DNA from: Gemmatimonadota bacterium
GTDB taxonomy: Bacteria > Gemmatimonadota > Gemmatimonadetes > Gemmatimonadales > Gemmatimonadaceae
Assembly (NCBI GenBank): GCA_021324775.1
Contig: JAJPIM010000023.1
Location: 117,176 to 181,175, forward strand
DNA: 64,000 nucleotides
Direction: 5' to 3'
The notes beneath the pieces were generated by a model. The model did no database searches and was not told where the DNA came from. It saw only the letters and a program-made list of their open reading frames with translations. Of the stretch, positions 19,715 to 32,313 are shown piece by piece. The translations under genes were made by a program, and so were the position numbers. Numbering within the stretch: position 1 is the first letter of the stretch; each line of letters starts with the position of its first letter.

Positions 19715-22603
<2,889 letters not shown>

Positions 22604-24819
22604 CGCATACGCCACTCCTGCCAACCCGCAGCAGATGTTAGCGATGGCGTCCGACGCGTGCTCCCAGGTGCTCCAGGCCGCGCGGTCGGCCAGGTCATCG
22701 AACGCTGTGTCGCCGGTGAGGCGCGCTGCCAGCGTCCAAAGGTGCACGAGCCCCGCGGATCCGTTGCACCAGCCGGCCAGAAGTGTCCGGTACTCCGGTA
22801 CGCGCGGATCGAGCGTGTGTGGCCACCGCAGCCCGCGGCCCCACGGCTGAGCGTACGACGCGATCTCTCGGAGTCGCGGGACCATGTCCGCGGATGCCGG
22901 CCGCCCCGTGACCGCGGACCAGCGGAGCGCCGCGTATAGCACGCCGGTCCAGCCGTGCGCGGCGCCCATCGCGGAGAAACCTGGCACATCGCGCATCGCT
23001 GGCAGTGACACGATGGCGTTCTCGATTTCTTCCAACGCGGCCGTGCCGTGCTGGGCCAGCCGTTGTCGCGGGATTTCGTGGATTGGCGCCAACGCCTCGA
23101 GCAGCAGCGCGCTCGCGATCAGCACACCGCTATGGCCGAGCATCAGGTCGAGGTTCACACGATGAGCCGGAACAGGTGACGCGGCGATGAACGCGTCGAC
23201 GGAATTGGCCAGCGACTGACGATCGCCTGCGGCGTTGGCGATCAGCGCGCGAACGCAGTGGATACCCGCGATCGTGTGGTACGGCGTACTGGCGGAATGG
23301 ACCGCGGACGTGAGCCCGCGTGCCACATCGGCGAAGGCATCTGGTGCGTCACCCGCCGCCATCGCGCGCGACGCCCACAGGTCTGCGAGGGCGAGCATCT
23401 CCGGATCGCCGCGGACGAGCGCGAGACGGTAGAGCGCATACGCGAGTCCCGCGGCGCCGTGCATCACCGAGGCCGCCGGCGCGTGTGGCATGGCTGGCAG
23501 CGCGTCGGTGTGCCCGTATCCCGCTCGCGTGAGAAAAGTGCCGAGCAACATGCGCTGCGCGTCGTCGGGCGTGTATTGCAGGTGTTGATGCACGTTCTCG
23601 TGCGCCGGCGGCCTCCCATCGCCATTGCCACTCGCCGCGACCGTCAGGATCTGCCGCAGGCTGGCCGCGAACGCGGCAATCGACGAATATCGGCCAGCGG
23701 GCGTCTTGCTCAACGCTCTCGCGAGAGCCGCCTCGGCCTCCGGCCATGGCTCGATGCCACGGGCGGCGAACGACAGCATGGCGCCATCACAGATCGCCGA
23801 GAGAAACGCATCTCGATCGAGCTGGAAATCCTGGTAGTGATCGCCTGTGAACAGCAGATAGAGCAATGCACCGAGTGCGAACTGCTCTCCCGCCTCGGAT
23901 GCGGGCGGGGGTGTGACCCCGTCGAGCAGCGCACGGGCCAGCTCCGGCTCGTAGTAGAACGGCACGCCCGCGCGAGGGACGCTGGCGTCCTCCGCACCGA
24001 TGCGTATCGCGAGGGCGAAATCGAGCAACGTGATACGGTTGTCGCGATCGACGAGGATGTTTCGCGGATGGATGTCGCCGTGCACGACCCCGCGCTCGTG
24101 CAGGCGGGCATAGACATCGAGCACGCGGATCCCGAGTTCGAGTAGCGCGGTGCGGCGCTGCCCGGCCGGAAGTGCTCGGCACTCCGCAGCCGGTACATCG
24201 ATGGCGGAGCCCGTGCACCAATCCAGAACGAGGTATGGGGACTCGCCGATCGTCCCACGTCGTCGCAGCCGCGGACCGACGGCCCCATCGAGCTGCGCCA
24301 GCACAGCCGCCTCGTGATCGAACCATCGCGCGAAGCTGGACTCGGGCGGACAGCGTGACGCCTTGAGCGCATACCATCCACCGGCGTCGTCCCTGACCTG
24401 ATACACCTCCGTGTCATCGAGCGTGTACACCGGGCGCACGATATTCCAGTCATCGACGCGGGTGCCGGGCGCGAGCCGGGGCTCAGCGCTGCCGTCCGCC
24501 GGATCGTCCTCGGACACGAGAAGCCGGTCATCGACGAGCCGCGTGATGAGTGGCCACGCGTCGGTGAGTACCGACTCGGGGTCGGTACCCGCAGTGCGGC
24601 TGTACTCGATCACCGCATCCGCGACGGTGCGTGGCGTGCGGAAGCACGAGAGCAGTGCCGCGGTGGAGGCATCGACGACGCGCGAAGGGTCGCGCGCACG
24701 GGCTCGCGTGAGGACGAAATCTGTTGCCGAGTGGGTGAACAGAGCACGTGTCGCGGCGGGAAGCGCCTCGACGGACATCAACTCGACACCGGGCGGAAGG
24801 ACAAGACGTCCCGCGAGGA

Positions 24820-26016
24820 TCACGTCGCCCCCGAGCGCCACACCGTGTCGGCGGGAATCCAGGTTTTGGGGTCGATCCGCAACGCGGCCGCGCGGCGGAG
24901 GGCGAAGCGTACTGGGTCGGCCTGGTCCGGCGCGTGGGGGCCGGTCGTGCGTCCTGCAATGAGTGCGGCTGCGAGCTGCGTGGTGAGCCAACTGCGCCAA
25001 CTCTCGCTGGCTGCGCCACCGATGACCCCCGCGTGCGCCGGAGGGTCGGCAGCCCACGAGATCATGCCATCCGGAGTGATCCCGGCGGTGAACGGAACCC
25101 CGTGCGCGGGTGCTCCGGCCAGCGCGTCAGTCAGCGCCGCGGCGGCCGCGTAGAGGTGGTCGCGGTGGCGGAAGTAGATGACCAGCTTGTCCGGGCGGAG
25201 CAGACCGTAGGGTCCCGCCCCAGCCTTGAACGCGAGCGCCTGGTGCGCGGTGGCGGCGGCGACGGTTGCCGCAAACGCCTCCGGGATCGCAGCGGGAGCG
25301 GGGCTCACATAGAGTTTGCACGTCCCGCGAGTGCCATCGGCCGATTCCCAGCGCTCCGCCGCGGACCAGCAGAGCCACTCGCCGTCGGCGCCTGTTGCCG
25401 TGCACGTCCAAACGCGATCGAGGGCGGTTGCGACGGCGGGCGTCGCGAGCCCCAGCCGCGTGAGGTCAGTCGCCGGCACCGCGGGCGCCGCATTGGCCGG
25501 GCTGAGGGGAAGGCTGTTGAATCGGTACAGGCGTCCGGCGAGGACGGCGACGTCATCGATCGGGAGGGCCGAGGCGTGACGAAGAGCGGCGATCGAGAGC
25601 TGAGCGATGTGACCGTGCGGCGGGGAGTCGTCGGCGCCCCCGTCGTATTCGTCGAGGCCCATGGCGCTGATCGCGTCTGGTCCCGACCGGAACACGCCGG
25701 CCGATTCGATCTCGAGGACGCCGTCGAGAACGAGGCCCGTGATCGTGTGCCAGGCATCTGGCCCCAGGAGCCGCCGCGCGTACGCCGGAATCGGACCCGG
25801 AGTCCGGAGAGTCAGGAGAAGGAGCGCACTTTCGCGATCGGCAGCCTTGGCGGTCGCGGCGGCGGCGTGCCGGCCAACAGGAAGGATGACCCCGTAGAAC
25901 GAGGGATCGCGCGTCAGGCTCGCGAGGCGTAGTTGCAATCCGGGCTCGAGCCGGTCGAACACGACCAGCTCGAGCGCCGGGTTGAATCGATACGTCGCCG
26001 ATTCCAGAGTCGGCAT
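24820..26016 (-). CDS. HopA1-like (T3SS effector HopA1 family) putative phosphothreonine lyase
   Basis: KAGAGPYGLLRPDKLVIYFRHRDHLYAAAAAL, HGVPFTAGITPDGMISWAADPP, C-terminal FALRRAAALRIDPKTWIP resemble the HopA1 layout; position next to a kinase-LanC gene supports this. Confidence 0.6.
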   Translation of the reverse strand: MPTLESATYRFNPALELVVFDRLEPGLQLRLASLTRDPSFYGVILPVGRHAAAATAKAADRESALLLLTLRTPGPIPAYARRLLGPDAWHTITGLVLDGVLEIESAGVFRSGPDAISAMGLDEYDGGADDSPPHGHIAQLSIAALRHASALPIDDVAVLAGRLYRFNSLPLSPANAAPAVPATDLTRLGLATPAVATALDRVWTCTATGADGEWLCWSAAERWESADGTRGTCKLYVSPAPAAIPEAFAATVAAATAHQALAFKAGAGPYGLLRPDKLVIYFRHRDHLYAAAAALTDALAGAPAHGVPFTAGITPDGMISWAADPPAHAGVIGGAASESWRSWLTTQLAAALIAGRTTGPHAPDQADPVRFALRRAAALRIDPKTWIPADTVWRSGAT

Positions 26017-26757: not shown

Positions 26758-27069
26758 TGTAATAGGTTCGCTGCGGCGGCCAGCGGCGGGCGGCCGCTCG
26801 GGAGGACCGTTCGGCAGAGCGATTCTCACGGTCGGCGGCGATGGAAAGGCCAGCTTGTCTGGAAGGACATACCGATCGGCGTCGGTGGCTAGAAAATTAG
26901 GTCTGGCGCACTCAGGCATATCGGTATACGTTAGGCGCGTCGAAGCCAGGTAATTAAGCGTTGCCTGTGATCTCCGCAGTGGTAAGGCGCTTCGGCACGC
27001 AGTACCGGATCGGTCTACACAGAGGTAGGCCGACGCTTTAGGGATTCCGGCGAGATCGCGCGCCCTTCG

Positions 27070-27172
27070 GGGCTGCGACAAAGGCAAAACCGGCGAAAGC
27101 CGGCGACGCAAAGCTACGAGGCTGTCGTCTGCGGACCCTCACCGCGCAGACCATGCTAGTCGGGCCGCCGAA
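27070..27172 (+). ncRNA. GEMM-I class cyclic-dinucleotide (c-di-GMP or cGAMP) riboswitch
   Basis: GCGACAAAGGCAAAACCGGCGAAAGCCGGCGACGCAAAGCUACGAGGCU: conserved GGCAAA, GAAA-capped stem CCGGC/GCCGG, GACGCAAAGC; second stem GUCUGCG/CGCAGAC and a 3' UAGUCGGGCCGCC block. Located directly upstream of ATG 27197. Confidence 0.88.
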
Positions 27173-27196
27173 CAGACGTTCGAGGGGAGAGATCTC

Positions 27197-28978
27197 ATGT
27201 CGCAGTCGCACCGGTCATCCCGGACGGCCCGGCCGTGCGCCACGTTTGTGGCCCGCGCCGCGGCCAGTACCGGATCGGCGGCCGTCCTTGCCGCCACCTT
27301 TTTGCTGGTCACGGCCTGTGGTGAATCGACCGCACCAGTCAGTGCGGCTCGCCCGATCGCTGGCGCTACCTCCGGCCTGATTCGCGTCGCCGCCAAAGGC
27401 CTCGCGACCGCCGCGGGGACAGCGCGCGATCCGATGACGCTCGAACAAGCCGTGGCGGTCGCACCTGCCGGTGCGACCATCGAGCTGAGCGCCGGCACCT
27501 ATGTCACGGGTGGCCTGGTGATCACGCGGCCGGTCACGATCCGCGCGGCGTCCGGCGCGAAGGTGATCTTGCGCGGGAGCACCGATATCGCGCCCGGCAT
27601 GTGGCAGGCGATGGGCAGTACCTGGCGCACGCCGTGGTCCGCTACCGGCGTCCCCGCCGCTGCCGTCGCCCCCGGTGGTGGAGAGAAAGCCGCCGGCGCC
27701 ACGACGACAATGGCGACGCCGCGGACGACCCCCGAGGTCGCGGAACAGGTCAAGGCCGAACACGACCTCCTCGTCGAGGCGATGGGTGGCGCTGCCGAGT
27801 ACGCGGCGCACCAGCACATGGCGTTCGTCGACGGCCGCGCTCTCCGGCGTGTCACGAACCTCGGCGACGTCAAACCGGGCACGTTCTACGTCGACGCCGA
27901 GTCCAAGTTCCTCTACATCGGCGAGAACCCGGGCGGCCACGAAGTCGCGCTCTCCGCGCAGGCCGTCGGCATGCTCCTCACCACCGGCAACACCCGCATC
28001 ACCGGCCTCACGCTCGAGCACTTCTCGCAGGTCGGTCTGCGCATCCAGGGCGCCTACACCCAGGTCGATCACAACACACTGGAATACAATGGCCTGGACG
28101 GGCTGATGATCAACGCCGCGTCCAACGCCCTCGTCCAGGACAACGCGGTGAAGTGGAACGGACAGGCTGGCATCGTGGGGAACGCCGCCAACGCCGTCAC
28201 CGTGGAAGACAACAACATCAGCAACAACAACACCGGCAACTACGACGCGAGCGAGTACGCGGCCGGCATCAAAGTCACGCAGATGACGAACTTCGTCTTT
28301 CGCGGCAATTGGGTTGCTGACAACAAGTCCAACGCCGTGTGGATCGATGTCAGCTCCACCAACTCGACGGTCGTCGGCAACCAGGTGCTGCGCAGCGCGT
28401 CCTACGGGATCTACATCGAGCAGGGCAACGGGATCATCATCGCCGCCAACATCGTGCACGACAACACGGATGGCATCGGCGTCCACTTCACGGAGAACGC
28501 CAGCGTCTACAACAACACCGTCACCAACAACGGCCTCGATCTCGACATCAGCGCGTGGGACGTGCAGGCGAACACCATCGAGAACGCCAAGATCGTCAAC
28601 AATCTGATCTGGAACGGCAGTACGAGTCTTCTGGTGAACCTGTACCGGGCTGCCGGCTGCAACAGCACGGCTTACAGTGAGGTCGACTACAACGGCTACT
28701 ATCGGCCGTCGGGCTCCGCCGCCAAGAACGCCGTGAACTGGTGCAACGACTTCTTCACGACCATCGGCGCATTCCACTCGAAGACGGGCTACGAAGCCCA
28801 CGGCCTCGAGATCGACGGCGGGGGCGATCCGTTCTTCGTCGCGATCTGGTCCGAGAATTACCACCTCCACTCGGGTAGCCCGGCCATCAACAGAGGCCAG
28901 CCGCTTCCCACCAACATTGCGGCCGCCCTGGGCTGGCGCGCCGGCATCCCCGTCAGCATGGGGGCTGTGCAGGATTAG
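27197..28978 (+). CDS. secreted right-handed parallel beta-helix repeat protein (probable lipoprotein)
   Basis: LLVTACGES lipobox-like; repeated N-rich beta-helix coils (VEDNNISNNNTGNYDASEY, VVGNQVLRSASYGIYIEQGNGIIIAANIVHDNTDGIGVHF). Confidence 0.85.
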   Translation: MSQSHRSSRTARPCATFVARAAASTGSAAVLAATFLLVTACGESTAPVSAARPIAGATSGLIRVAAKGLATAAGTARDPMTLEQAVAVAPAGATIELSAGTYVTGGLVITRPVTIRAASGAKVILRGSTDIAPGMWQAMGSTWRTPWSATGVPAAAVAPGGGEKAAGATTTMATPRTTPEVAEQVKAEHDLLVEAMGGAAEYAAHQHMAFVDGRALRRVTNLGDVKPGTFYVDAESKFLYIGENPGGHEVALSAQAVGMLLTTGNTRITGLTLEHFSQVGLRIQGAYTQVDHNTLEYNGLDGLMINAASNALVQDNAVKWNGQAGIVGNAANAVTVEDNNISNNNTGNYDASEYAAGIKVTQMTNFVFRGNWVADNKSNAVWIDVSSTNSTVVGNQVLRSASYGIYIEQGNGIIIAANIVHDNTDGIGVHFTENASVYNNTVTNNGLDLDISAWDVQANTIENAKIVNNLIWNGSTSLLVNLYRAAGCNSTAYSEVDYNGYYRPSGSAAKNAVNWCNDFFTTIGAFHSKTGYEAHGLEIDGGGDPFFVAIWSENYHLHSGSPAINRGQPLPTNIAAALGWRAGIPVSMGAVQD

Positions 28979-29393: not shown

Positions 29394-30875
29394 ATGGCTC
29401 ACCCGGGCACCACACGATTCCTTCGAGCAGCAACGGCGATGGGCATGCTCGTAAGCGTGCTTATGAGCATGCTTGCCCTCAGCGCGACGGGAGCGGCTGC
29501 GCAGGAAGCCGCCCTGGGCACCACGCCGCCCACACCGGTTGGCTCGGGATCGTCACCCGGAGCGTCAGGATTCGAGGTACCCATCGAATACAAGACACTG
29601 CCCAACGGTCTCCGTGTCGTGCTCTCTCGCGACACGACCGCCCCGATCGTCACCGTGGCCGTCTACTATCACATCGGGTTCCGGGTCGAGCCGCGCGACC
29701 GCACGGGATTCGCCCACCTCTTCGAGCACCTCATGTTCCAGGGCTCGCAGAATCTGGGCAAGCTGCAGTTCATCAAGCTCGTGCAGTCGAATGGCGGTAT
29801 CCTCAACGGATCGACGCGATTCGACTTCACGAATTACTTCGAGATCGTTCCGTCCAACACGCTCGAGATGTTCCTCTGGGCGGAGGCCGACCGCATGCGC
29901 GGCCTCGCGATCACGCAGGACAACCTGACGAACCAGCAGGGCGTCGTGAAGAGCGAAGTCCGCGTGAATGTGCTCAACACGCCGTACGGCGGGTTCCCCT
30001 GGCTGGACATGCCACAGTACGCCAACACGAACTGGTACAACGCGCACAATTTCTACGGCGACTTGCGCGACATCGACGCCGCGACGCTCACCGACGCACA
30101 GGCGTTCCATCGCACGTACTACTCCCCGGGTAACGCGGTCCTCGTGGTCACGGGCGACATCGACCGCACCACGACGTGGAAATGGGTCGAGAAGTATTTC
30201 GCGCCGATCCCCGGGGTCGCCCTGCCGAAACGCCCTGACCTCACGGAGCCGCGCCAGGAGAAACCCATTCGCGCGAGCAAGGACGACACGCTGGCGACTC
30301 GCCCGGCTCTGGCGTTCTCGTATCACATGCCGCCCCGCAACACGCCGGAATACTACGCCATGGGGCTGATCGACCAGATCCTGCTCCAGGGCCACGACAG
30401 TTGGCTCTACCAGGCGCTCGTCCAGCGGGGTGGCTACGCCGGTGATGTCACGGGCGGGATCAATCTCCTTGGCAACATGTTCGACTACGAGGGTCCCATG
30501 CTGTGGACCGCGTCGCTTTACCACGATACGAGCCACTCGCCCGACGAGATCCTCAAAGCCGCCGATGCCACGATCGACTCGCTCCGCAACACGCCGATCG
30601 ATGCTGCCACCCTCGCCCGCGCCCAGGTCAAGGAGCGCGCGGCACTTTACGGCATCATCGGCGGCCGTCTCGGCTTCGGTCGCGCCGATCTTCTCGCGTC
30701 GTTCGCGCTCTTCGACAACGACCCTGCACGAATCAACACGCTCGAGCAGTCATTCCGCGCCGTCACCCCGGCCCTCATCCAGCGGACGGCGCGCGAATAT
30801 CTCCGTCCCGGGAACCAGACTGCTCTCACCATCGTACCCAAAGGAAAAACTGCCAATGCCACGACTGGCCAGTAA
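29394..30875 (+). CDS. M16 family zinc metallopeptidase, catalytic subunit type
   Basis: Signal peptide, HxxEH motif in FAHLFEHLMFQGS, YYSPGNAVLVVTGDID. Confidence 0.92.
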   Translation: MAHPGTTRFLRAATAMGMLVSVLMSMLALSATGAAAQEAALGTTPPTPVGSGSSPGASGFEVPIEYKTLPNGLRVVLSRDTTAPIVTVAVYYHIGFRVEPRDRTGFAHLFEHLMFQGSQNLGKLQFIKLVQSNGGILNGSTRFDFTNYFEIVPSNTLEMFLWAEADRMRGLAITQDNLTNQQGVVKSEVRVNVLNTPYGGFPWLDMPQYANTNWYNAHNFYGDLRDIDAATLTDAQAFHRTYYSPGNAVLVVTGDIDRTTTWKWVEKYFAPIPGVALPKRPDLTEPRQEKPIRASKDDTLATRPALAFSYHMPPRNTPEYYAMGLIDQILLQGHDSWLYQALVQRGGYAGDVTGGINLLGNMFDYEGPMLWTASLYHDTSHSPDEILKAADATIDSLRNTPIDAATLARAQVKERAALYGIIGGRLGFGRADLLASFALFDNDPARINTLEQSFRAVTPALIQRTAREYLRPGNQTALTIVPKGKTANATTGQ

Positions 30876-32313
30876 GCTCGGGGTGAGGCCTGCTGCCAGG
30901 CCAGCTACCAACCTCGCCGCGGCGCTCGTTGCGGGCTGTCTCCTCTTGCCGCCGGGGCTCCACGCGCAGGCCGCGCCGGCCGGAGCCGCCTCGGCCAAGG
31001 AAAGCCCGCCAGCGCCCGCTGCGCCCAAGGACTTCTCGGTGCCCGCCAAGCATGAGTTCACGCTCGCCAATGGCATGCACGTTACGCTCGTTCCGTACGG
31101 CCGCCTTCCCATCGCCACGCTGTCGCTCGATCTGCGCACGGGAGCGATCGATGAGGGCCCGCAGCAGGTCTGGCTCTCCGCCCTGATGGCCGATTATCTC
31201 CAGCAGGGCACGGCCTCGCACCCGGCGGCCGCGGTCGCGGAAGCAGTCGCCGGCATGGGCGGCGCGCTCAGCATCACGGCCGGCGATGATCAGACCTCGA
31301 TCCAGGGCGCCGTGCTCGGCGACTCCGCCGCCGCATTCGCCCGGCTCATCGCCGATATCGTCCAGCACCCGAGCTTCCCGGAATCCGAGTTCCCGCGACT
31401 CAGGAACGACCGGCTCCGCCAGCTCGCAATCGCCTCGAGCCGCCCGCAGGTCATGGCACAGGATCGCTTCGCCGCACAGATATATCCGGATCACCCCTAT
31501 GGGCGGGTCCTGCCCACCGAGGACGCGCTCAAGGGATACACGGCCGCACAGGTGCGCGATTTCTACGCGCACAACGCCGGCGCCGTCCGCGCGCACCTCT
31601 ACATCGTCGGCATGTTCAACAGCGCCGCGGTCGAACAGGCTGTCCGTGATGCCTTCGAGGGATGGACCGCCGGTTCGCCGCCAACGATCAATGTTCCCAC
31701 GGTGCGTGCCGAGCGCACGGTGATCCTGATCGACCGCCCGGGCGCCGTGCAGTCAACGATCGACCTCGGCCTCCCCGTCCCCGACCCGAGCCAGCCCGAC
31801 GACATTCCGCTCCAGGTGACCGACGCGCTCCTCGGCGGATCCTTCGGTTCGCGCATCACCAGCAACATCCGCGAACAGAAGGGCTACACGTACTCGCCAT
31901 TCAGCACGGTGGACACGAAATACCGGTCCGCGGACTGGCGCGAAGGTGCGGACGTGACCACCAATGTCACGGGTGCGTCGCTCAAGGAGATCTTCGGCGA
32001 GATCGATCGCCTCCGCAATGAAGCGCCCACCGCCGACGAAGTCCGCGCCATCGAGAACTATGTCGCTGGGACGTTCGTGCTGGCCAACTCATCGCAGGCG
32101 GGCCTCGCTCGCCAGTTCGGGTTCGTGGACCTGCACGGCCTGGGAGATGATTACCTCACCACGTTCGTCCGCCGTGTCTACGCGGTCACACCGGCCGACG
32201 TTCAGCGCATCGCTCAGCAGTACCTCGACCCGAACAAGATGGCCATCGTCGTAGCAGGCGATAAGAAGACAGTTGCCGACCAGGTCGCGCCCTACGGCAA
32301 GGTGGTGCAATGA
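30856..32313 (+). CDS. M16 family peptidase-like protein, non-catalytic partner
   Basis: M16 fold (LPNG-like LANGMHVTLVPYGRLPIATLSL; YVAGTFVLANSSQAGLARQ) without HxxEH (LSALMADYLQQGTAS). ATG at 30856 overlaps the upstream stop. Confidence 0.88.
   Translation: MPRLASKLGVRPAARPATNLAAALVAGCLLLPPGLHAQAAPAGAASAKESPPAPAAPKDFSVPAKHEFTLANGMHVTLVPYGRLPIATLSLDLRTGAIDEGPQQVWLSALMADYLQQGTASHPAAAVAEAVAGMGGALSITAGDDQTSIQGAVLGDSAAAFARLIADIVQHPSFPESEFPRLRNDRLRQLAIASSRPQVMAQDRFAAQIYPDHPYGRVLPTEDALKGYTAAQVRDFYAHNAGAVRAHLYIVGMFNSAAVEQAVRDAFEGWTAGSPPTINVPTVRAERTVILIDRPGAVQSTIDLGLPVPDPSQPDDIPLQVTDALLGGSFGSRITSNIREQKGYTYSPFSTVDTKYRSADWREGADVTTNVTGASLKEIFGEIDRLRNEAPTADEVRAIENYVAGTFVLANSSQAGLARQFGFVDLHGLGDDYLTTFVRRVYAVTPADVQRIAQQYLDPNKMAIVVAGDKKTVADQVAPYGKVVQ

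Follow-up and report, generated by a model that had tools for sequence, protein, structure and literature searches.

The 5' untranslated region of a β-helix lipoprotein gene in a soil Gemmatimonadota bacterium (genome size 4.2 Mb) contains, judged from sequence, a true c-di-GMP riboswitch belonging to the familiar class c-di-GMP-I (GEMM-I). We propose that this RNA probably controls translation as an OFF switch, in which an upstream hairpin, P0, gives way to an extended P1 helix covering the Shine-Dalgarno sequence (SD). The aptamer class is ordinary and its lineage context apparently undescribed, a literature search having found no riboswitch or c-di-GMP study for Gemmatimonadota; the new content, computational in both parts, would be the expression platform and a lipoprotein regulon. 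A GEMM-I aptamer upstream of the β-helix gene had been proposed in the first-pass annotation of the window, meaning here the whole analysed stretch of 64,000 nucleotides. This core reading is upheld and refined below by three elements missing from it: the Rfam GGC label and its misfit, the platform made of a 5' hairpin and anti-SD, and the family-wide lipoprotein regulon.

Scanning the window with cmscan yielded a single match at the gathering threshold, namely RF03167 (c-di-GMP-I-GGC, 60.8 bits, E 7.1e-12, gathering score 59 bits). The RF01051 covariance-model search, proposed earlier as a check, gave a full-length match (1-87) at the same place, scoring 67.1 bits in the host genome (E 9.2e-13, gathering score 35 bits). 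The aptamer and the gene behind it comprise the following features.

27074-27173, forward strand: c-di-GMP-I (GEMM-I) riboswitch aptamer (matches to RF03167 and RF01051, covariation)
27083, forward strand: G, equivalent of Vc2 G20, indicating c-di-GMP rather than cGAMP (alignment)
27090-27103, forward strand: P2 hairpin with a GAAA tetraloop at 27095-27098 (cmscan alignment, covariation)
27110, forward strand: A, equivalent of Vc2 A47, where the RF03167 consensus has G (printed cmscan alignment and a further alignment)
27113-27165, forward strand: P3 with the apical stem GUCUGCG/CGCAGAC (cmscan alignment, covariation)
27168, forward strand: C, equivalent of Vc2 C92, the Watson-Crick partner of the ligand (alignment)
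27197-28978, forward strand: predicted regulated gene encoding a 593-amino-acid right-handed β-helix lipoprotein with lipobox VTAC and Cys41 (Pfam PF13229 and PF05048)

All sequence elements named in the initial description are present: GGCAAA at 27083-27088, the GAAA-capped CCGGC/GCCGG stem at 27090-27094/27099-27103, GACGCAAAGC at 27105-27114 and the GUCUGCG/CGCAGAC stem at 27127-27133/27145-27151, which represents the apical part of P3. The stem region had been said to end about 25 nt before the ATG; measured from the last aptamer base (27173), the ATG at 27197 lies 23 nt away. Fold support was evaluated in an alignment of 53 homologous RNAs from relatives, using a structure fixed beforehand from the Rfam match. 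Standard pairs occupy 93.6% of the cells, compared with 15-36% in slid controls. Double changes are found at 17 of 25 pairs, a result equalled by none of 500 shuffles, and the number of double-change cells is 125 against a shuffle mean of 32.7 and 5-31 in slid controls. P1, P2 with its GNRA loop and P3, which together mark the c-di-GMP-I class, are all backed by compensatory change.

The downstream protein was correctly described as an exported β-helix lipoprotein under the GEMM-I leader (PF13229, E 1.8e-22), with the lipobox Cys41 invariant in four homologues. Its orthologues are 66, 51 and 47% identical, and the closest of these, found in a genus mate (Gemmatimonadota MAG, palsa_1248), also carries a GEMM-I RNA 23 nt before its ATG. 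An AlphaFold2 model (mean pLDDT 50) places a β-helix core at residues ~270-430 with moderate confidence, the remainder being of low confidence. No enzyme activity was assigned because a phmmer search against the PDB gave only a weak match to 3vst (xylosidase XylC, E 5.5e-5, residues 64-145) and a fold search using the low-confidence model returned generic β-helix carbohydrate enzymes and tailspikes. Two M16 peptidase genes are located directly 3' of the β-helix gene (window 29394-32313). Elsewhere in the window (19715-25057), a Ser/Thr kinase-TPR protein adjoins a kinase-LanC-like fusion resembling class III/IV lanthipeptide synthetases.

The regulatory leader extends 5' of the aptamer, starting at about 27048, and its predicted elements are listed below.

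27048-27059, forward strand: conserved box CGGCGAGATCGC, lying ~25 nt ahead of the aptamer (consensus CGGCANGATCGC); its UCGC is complementary to the 5' strand of P1 (leader counts)
27056-27078, forward strand: predicted ligand-free hairpin P0, sequestering the P1 5' strand and the anti-SD (local fold, covarying halves)
27063-27072, forward strand: putative anti-Shine-Dalgarno segment CCCUUCGGGG (own-versus-swapped complementarity)
27169-27187, forward strand: 3' side shared by P1 and the predicted extended P1 (15 pairs with 27063-27077), which buries the SD (constrained fold)
27183-27189, forward strand: Shine-Dalgarno sequence AGGGGAG (sequence)

The platform was analysed by computing duplex energies between leader segments and their own linker plus SD and comparing them with those of swapped partners. 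Only the 40-nt stretch immediately 5' of the aptamer gave a signal (own pairs -16.8, swapped pairs -14.8 kcal/mol, z -5.06, 0 of 2000), which maps to positions -20 to -4 relative to the aptamer. A held-out set of 51 leaders, drawn from 33 genomes new to the analysis, reproduced it (z -6.07, 0 of 5000), with all control segments negative. Within-genome permutations of SD complementarity were weak to marginal (p 0.02-0.055). The P3 loop, the aptamer 3' end and the early coding sequence were rejected as SD partners, lacking any own-pairing signal.

In P0, UCGCG (27056-27060) and UGCGA (27074-27078) close an inner GCCC (27062-27065)-UUCG-GGGC (27070-27073) hairpin. The two halves covary (z -4.35; held-out leaders z -4.81), and in 56 of 59 leaders the hairpin is closed by a UCGC lying upstream, paired with GCGA in P1; shuffles average 41.6, so that P1 5'-strand sequestration exceeds them only moderately. 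Leaders whose aptamer carries AGUGAC or AGUAAC have GUUACU or GUUGCU as the partner (G033:C37, G022:C33). The CGGCANGATCGC box was detected in 31 of 59 leaders, 30 of them with the box 22-37 nt upstream, versus 3 of 57 control stretches, and in 19 of 51 held-out leaders versus 0 of 51. Its distance is fixed family-wide, and P1 pairing explains part of it, not the conserved CGGCAN. Further upstream, at window positions 26990-27037, lies another hairpin (CGGUCUAC/GUAGGCCG), conserved through compensatory changes at a second GEMM-I leader of the host (C3:27625) and in genus mates.

RNAs with G, A and C at positions 20, 47 and 92 (GAC RNAs) and an assigned gene are a median of 23 nt from the start codon, with the ATG 8-36 nt away in 61 of 76 cases. 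A terminator-type platform was rejected: in the window, the aptamer-ATG interval contains no terminator, and T-runs within the next 70 nt are rare in the GAC class (4/78, versus 10/32 RNAs with A at position 20).

In the proposed mechanism, P0 would hold the P1 5' strand and the anti-SD when ligand is absent, leaving the SD exposed and the protein produced (ON). Binding of c-di-GMP at G20/A47/C92 would stabilise P1, which would then extend as a single helix into anti-SD:SD pairing (27063-27077 with 27169-27187) and shut off translation. With the anti-SD on the 5' side of P1 and the SD on its 3' side, stabilisation of P1 by ligand is expected to promote SD sequestration. The aptamer, the pocket letters, conservation and the complementarity of the 5' segment to its own SD in two leader sets are computed results; ligand binding, the mutual exclusivity of P0 and P1 and the OFF sign of the switch are what we infer. 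In folds that held the aptamer core constant, imposing P1 lifted the pairing of SD and upstream segment from 0.24 to 0.51 (p 2e-6), as against 0.37-0.42 for swapped and 0.28-0.30 for shuffled segments. SD accessibility fell at the same time, by only slightly more than in swapped controls. The unpaired probability of the SD in the window is 0.58 without and 0.26 with P1, in ViennaRNA folds that ignore ligand and tertiary contacts. Thermodynamics alone does not settle the direction, and we favour OFF with some confidence.

The same riboswitch might instead turn translation on, with ligand-bound P1 sparing the inner P0 stem and leaving the SD free, and the apo RNA masking the SD by other means. 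We regard this as unlikely, though worth serious consideration, as GEMM-I switches of both signs are on record (PMC9262584) and activation of adhesins by c-di-GMP riboswitches is documented, for example of GbpA by Vc1 (PMC4744006). In addition, folds limited to 10 nt of upstream sequence give no clear direction over the whole ribosome binding site. However, P1 closure brings the 5' anti-SD and the 3' SD together, and the two pair more when P1 is imposed. Should the OFF model be correct, cells with high c-di-GMP would stop producing polysaccharide-active and Ig-like surface lipoproteins. The covarying 5' anti-SD hairpin offers a specific, mutable platform.

Regarding class assignment, RF03167 is the winner within its clan and scores above its gathering threshold, which could place the RNA in the c-di-GMP-I-GGC variant, possibly with another ligand. 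The name GGC presumably refers to nucleotides 20/47/92 of Vc2, and G is strongly conserved in the position-47 column of the RF03167 consensus (uppercase, model position 37; GACGCGAAGC). However, the window has A at this position, printed as a mismatch, RF01051 gives the higher score and is also the family called for three sister copies in the host genome, and G at position 47 is absent from all 114 aligned RNAs of relatives. The label taken at face value was therefore rejected on position 47, and we judge membership in the variant very improbable.

Vc2 contacts c-di-GMP via G20, A47 and C92 (PMC4744006). The ligand had initially been given as c-di-GMP or 3',3'-cGAMP, with Vc2 position 20 as the discriminating nucleotide; the G found there, together with A47 and C92, reproduces the c-di-GMP contact triple and favours the first option over the second. 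All four GEMM-I RNAs of the host genome have GAC at these positions. No GGDEF domain is encoded in the window, in line with the earlier remark on diguanylate cyclases, the nearest one on the contig (C43:4574) lying outside it. The host genome contains 12 GGDEF matches over the cut-off, most with intact GGDEF/GGEEF and GHxxGD, a complement by which the host is predicted to make c-di-GMP. The Hypr serine (GHxxGS; signature defined in PMC6456294) is absent from its readable GGDEF domains, all of which have the canonical GHxxGD Asp; three further domains are degenerate, and the search for cGAMP cyclases covered GGDEF proteins. Because of the G20/A47/C92 pocket and of GGDEF domains with Asp rather than the Hypr serine, c-di-GMP is the expected ligand.

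A cGAMP riboswitch (GEMM-Ib) would have an identical fold, position 20 is a selectivity factor and not an absolute filter (PMC9262584), and A20 RNAs as well as Hypr-type GGDEFs occur in the order. Yet the G at 27083 departs from the A20 of GEMM-Ib, and the host genome shows neither a Hypr serine among its readable GGDEF domains nor a close Hypr homologue; cGAMP was rejected as ligand on these grounds and appears even less plausible than the GGC variant. That the element is a non-functional relic or chance resemblance is scarcely credible, given an E-value of 7e-12, compensatory changes, an intact pocket and a position conserved at an orthologue, and no point in its favour was found.

RF01051 matches were identified in 39 of 60 relatives and in 113 of 159 genomes of a wider draw from the family. 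The 114 aligned RNAs of relatives carry GAC (78), AAC (32) or GAT (4) pocket triples. Proteins encoded downstream of GAC/GAT RNAs (n=53) include 33 with Big_2, 7 with Beta_helix, 4 with subtilase, 3 with polysaccharide lyase and 1 with alginate lyase domains. The strict lipobox pattern is found in 46 of 63 downstream proteins, several others having a Cys after a hydrophobic stretch. In the family, GEMM-I RNAs mostly precede exported lipoproteins with Ig-like, β-helix or polysaccharide-lyase domains, ~23 nt before the ATG, which would connect c-di-GMP with the set of lipoproteins exported by this soil phylum, a widespread group with few cultured members.

Other families of the order encode A20 RNAs (CGCTGCTCAGAGCAAA) in which the aptamer 3' strand pairs with a CTGGCGG-U-run terminator, therefore implying an ON switch. 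In one genome (G053, three leaders) and another (G051, one leader), such an RNA is found 69-93 nt before a G20 RNA, giving four arrangements of an A20-terminator RNA followed by a G20 RNA at a lipoprotein ribosome binding site.

L080, 724-995 (G053:C246)
L084, 2001-2095 plus ~180 nt upstream (G053:C176)
L095, 1288-1565 (G053:C1)
L096 (G051:C17:53449-53698)

The Hypr signature, here GHLxGS together with GGDEF, occurs in MASE1-like GGDEF proteins of G036, G051, G053 and G044. Across 60 genomes, the Hypr family and the A20 type are associated with a Fisher p of 0.02 if G020, whose match is canonical, is included; the corrected contrast is 4/10 versus 3/50, and the association of the MASE1-like Hypr family with terminator-type A20 RNAs is suggestive. 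The A20/G20 series together with Hypr cyclases is a candidate two-messenger gate, and no cGAMP/c-di-GMP pair is among the tandem riboswitch gates listed in PMC9481103. Tentatively, a Gemmatimonadota-wide 5'-hairpin anti-SD platform may switch off many surface lipoproteins, complemented in G053 and G051 by "cGAMP AND NOT c-di-GMP" leaders supplied by Hypr and ordinary GGDEF cyclases that coexist in one cell. If true, the A20/G20 series would represent a natural two-dinucleotide logic gate.

Several further observations concern these RNAs and cyclases. The signature GHLxGS plus R(F/Y)GGDEF is found in Gemmatimonadota at L169, L177, L179, L182 and L187-L190, with L169, L177, L179, L182 and L187 belonging to genomes that have A20 RNAs. 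Three tandem A20 GEMM-I aptamers, ~70 nt apart, precede a lipoprotein gene at L112 (G036:C3:4761-5163) and L114 (G036:C36:1983-2385). A second A20 group (GATAAGAGCACACCC, GGCCGCAAAGC; L102, L116, L138, L140, L142, L148, L149) is located 5' of short genes, several of them STAS-like, and its members L102 and L116 are labelled RF03167.

Among known systems, c-di-GMP-I-GGC (RF03167) is similar overall, with a score just above gathering, but the RNA described here has A, not G, at Vc2 position 47. The GEMM-Ib riboswitch of Geobacter pilM shares the fold, whereas here G20 replaces A20, no terminator is present and no Hypr cyclase was found in the genome. Like the Vc1/gbpA and Bc2/cap adhesin riboswitches, our system places a c-di-GMP-I RNA 5' of a secreted surface or adhesion protein (PMC4744006; PMC4933901); its targets and leader are different, and Vc1 promotes expression. 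Vc2 of Vibrio cholerae (GEMM-I, RF01051), described as a translational OFF switch in which P1 stability is key (PMC9262584), shares the P1/P2/P3 fold, the GAAA tetraloop, the G20/A47/C92 pocket and the 5' UTR position. In contrast to Vc2, the leader described here has a 5' hairpin with an anti-SD that covaries with the SD, and its targets are Gemmatimonadota lipoproteins.
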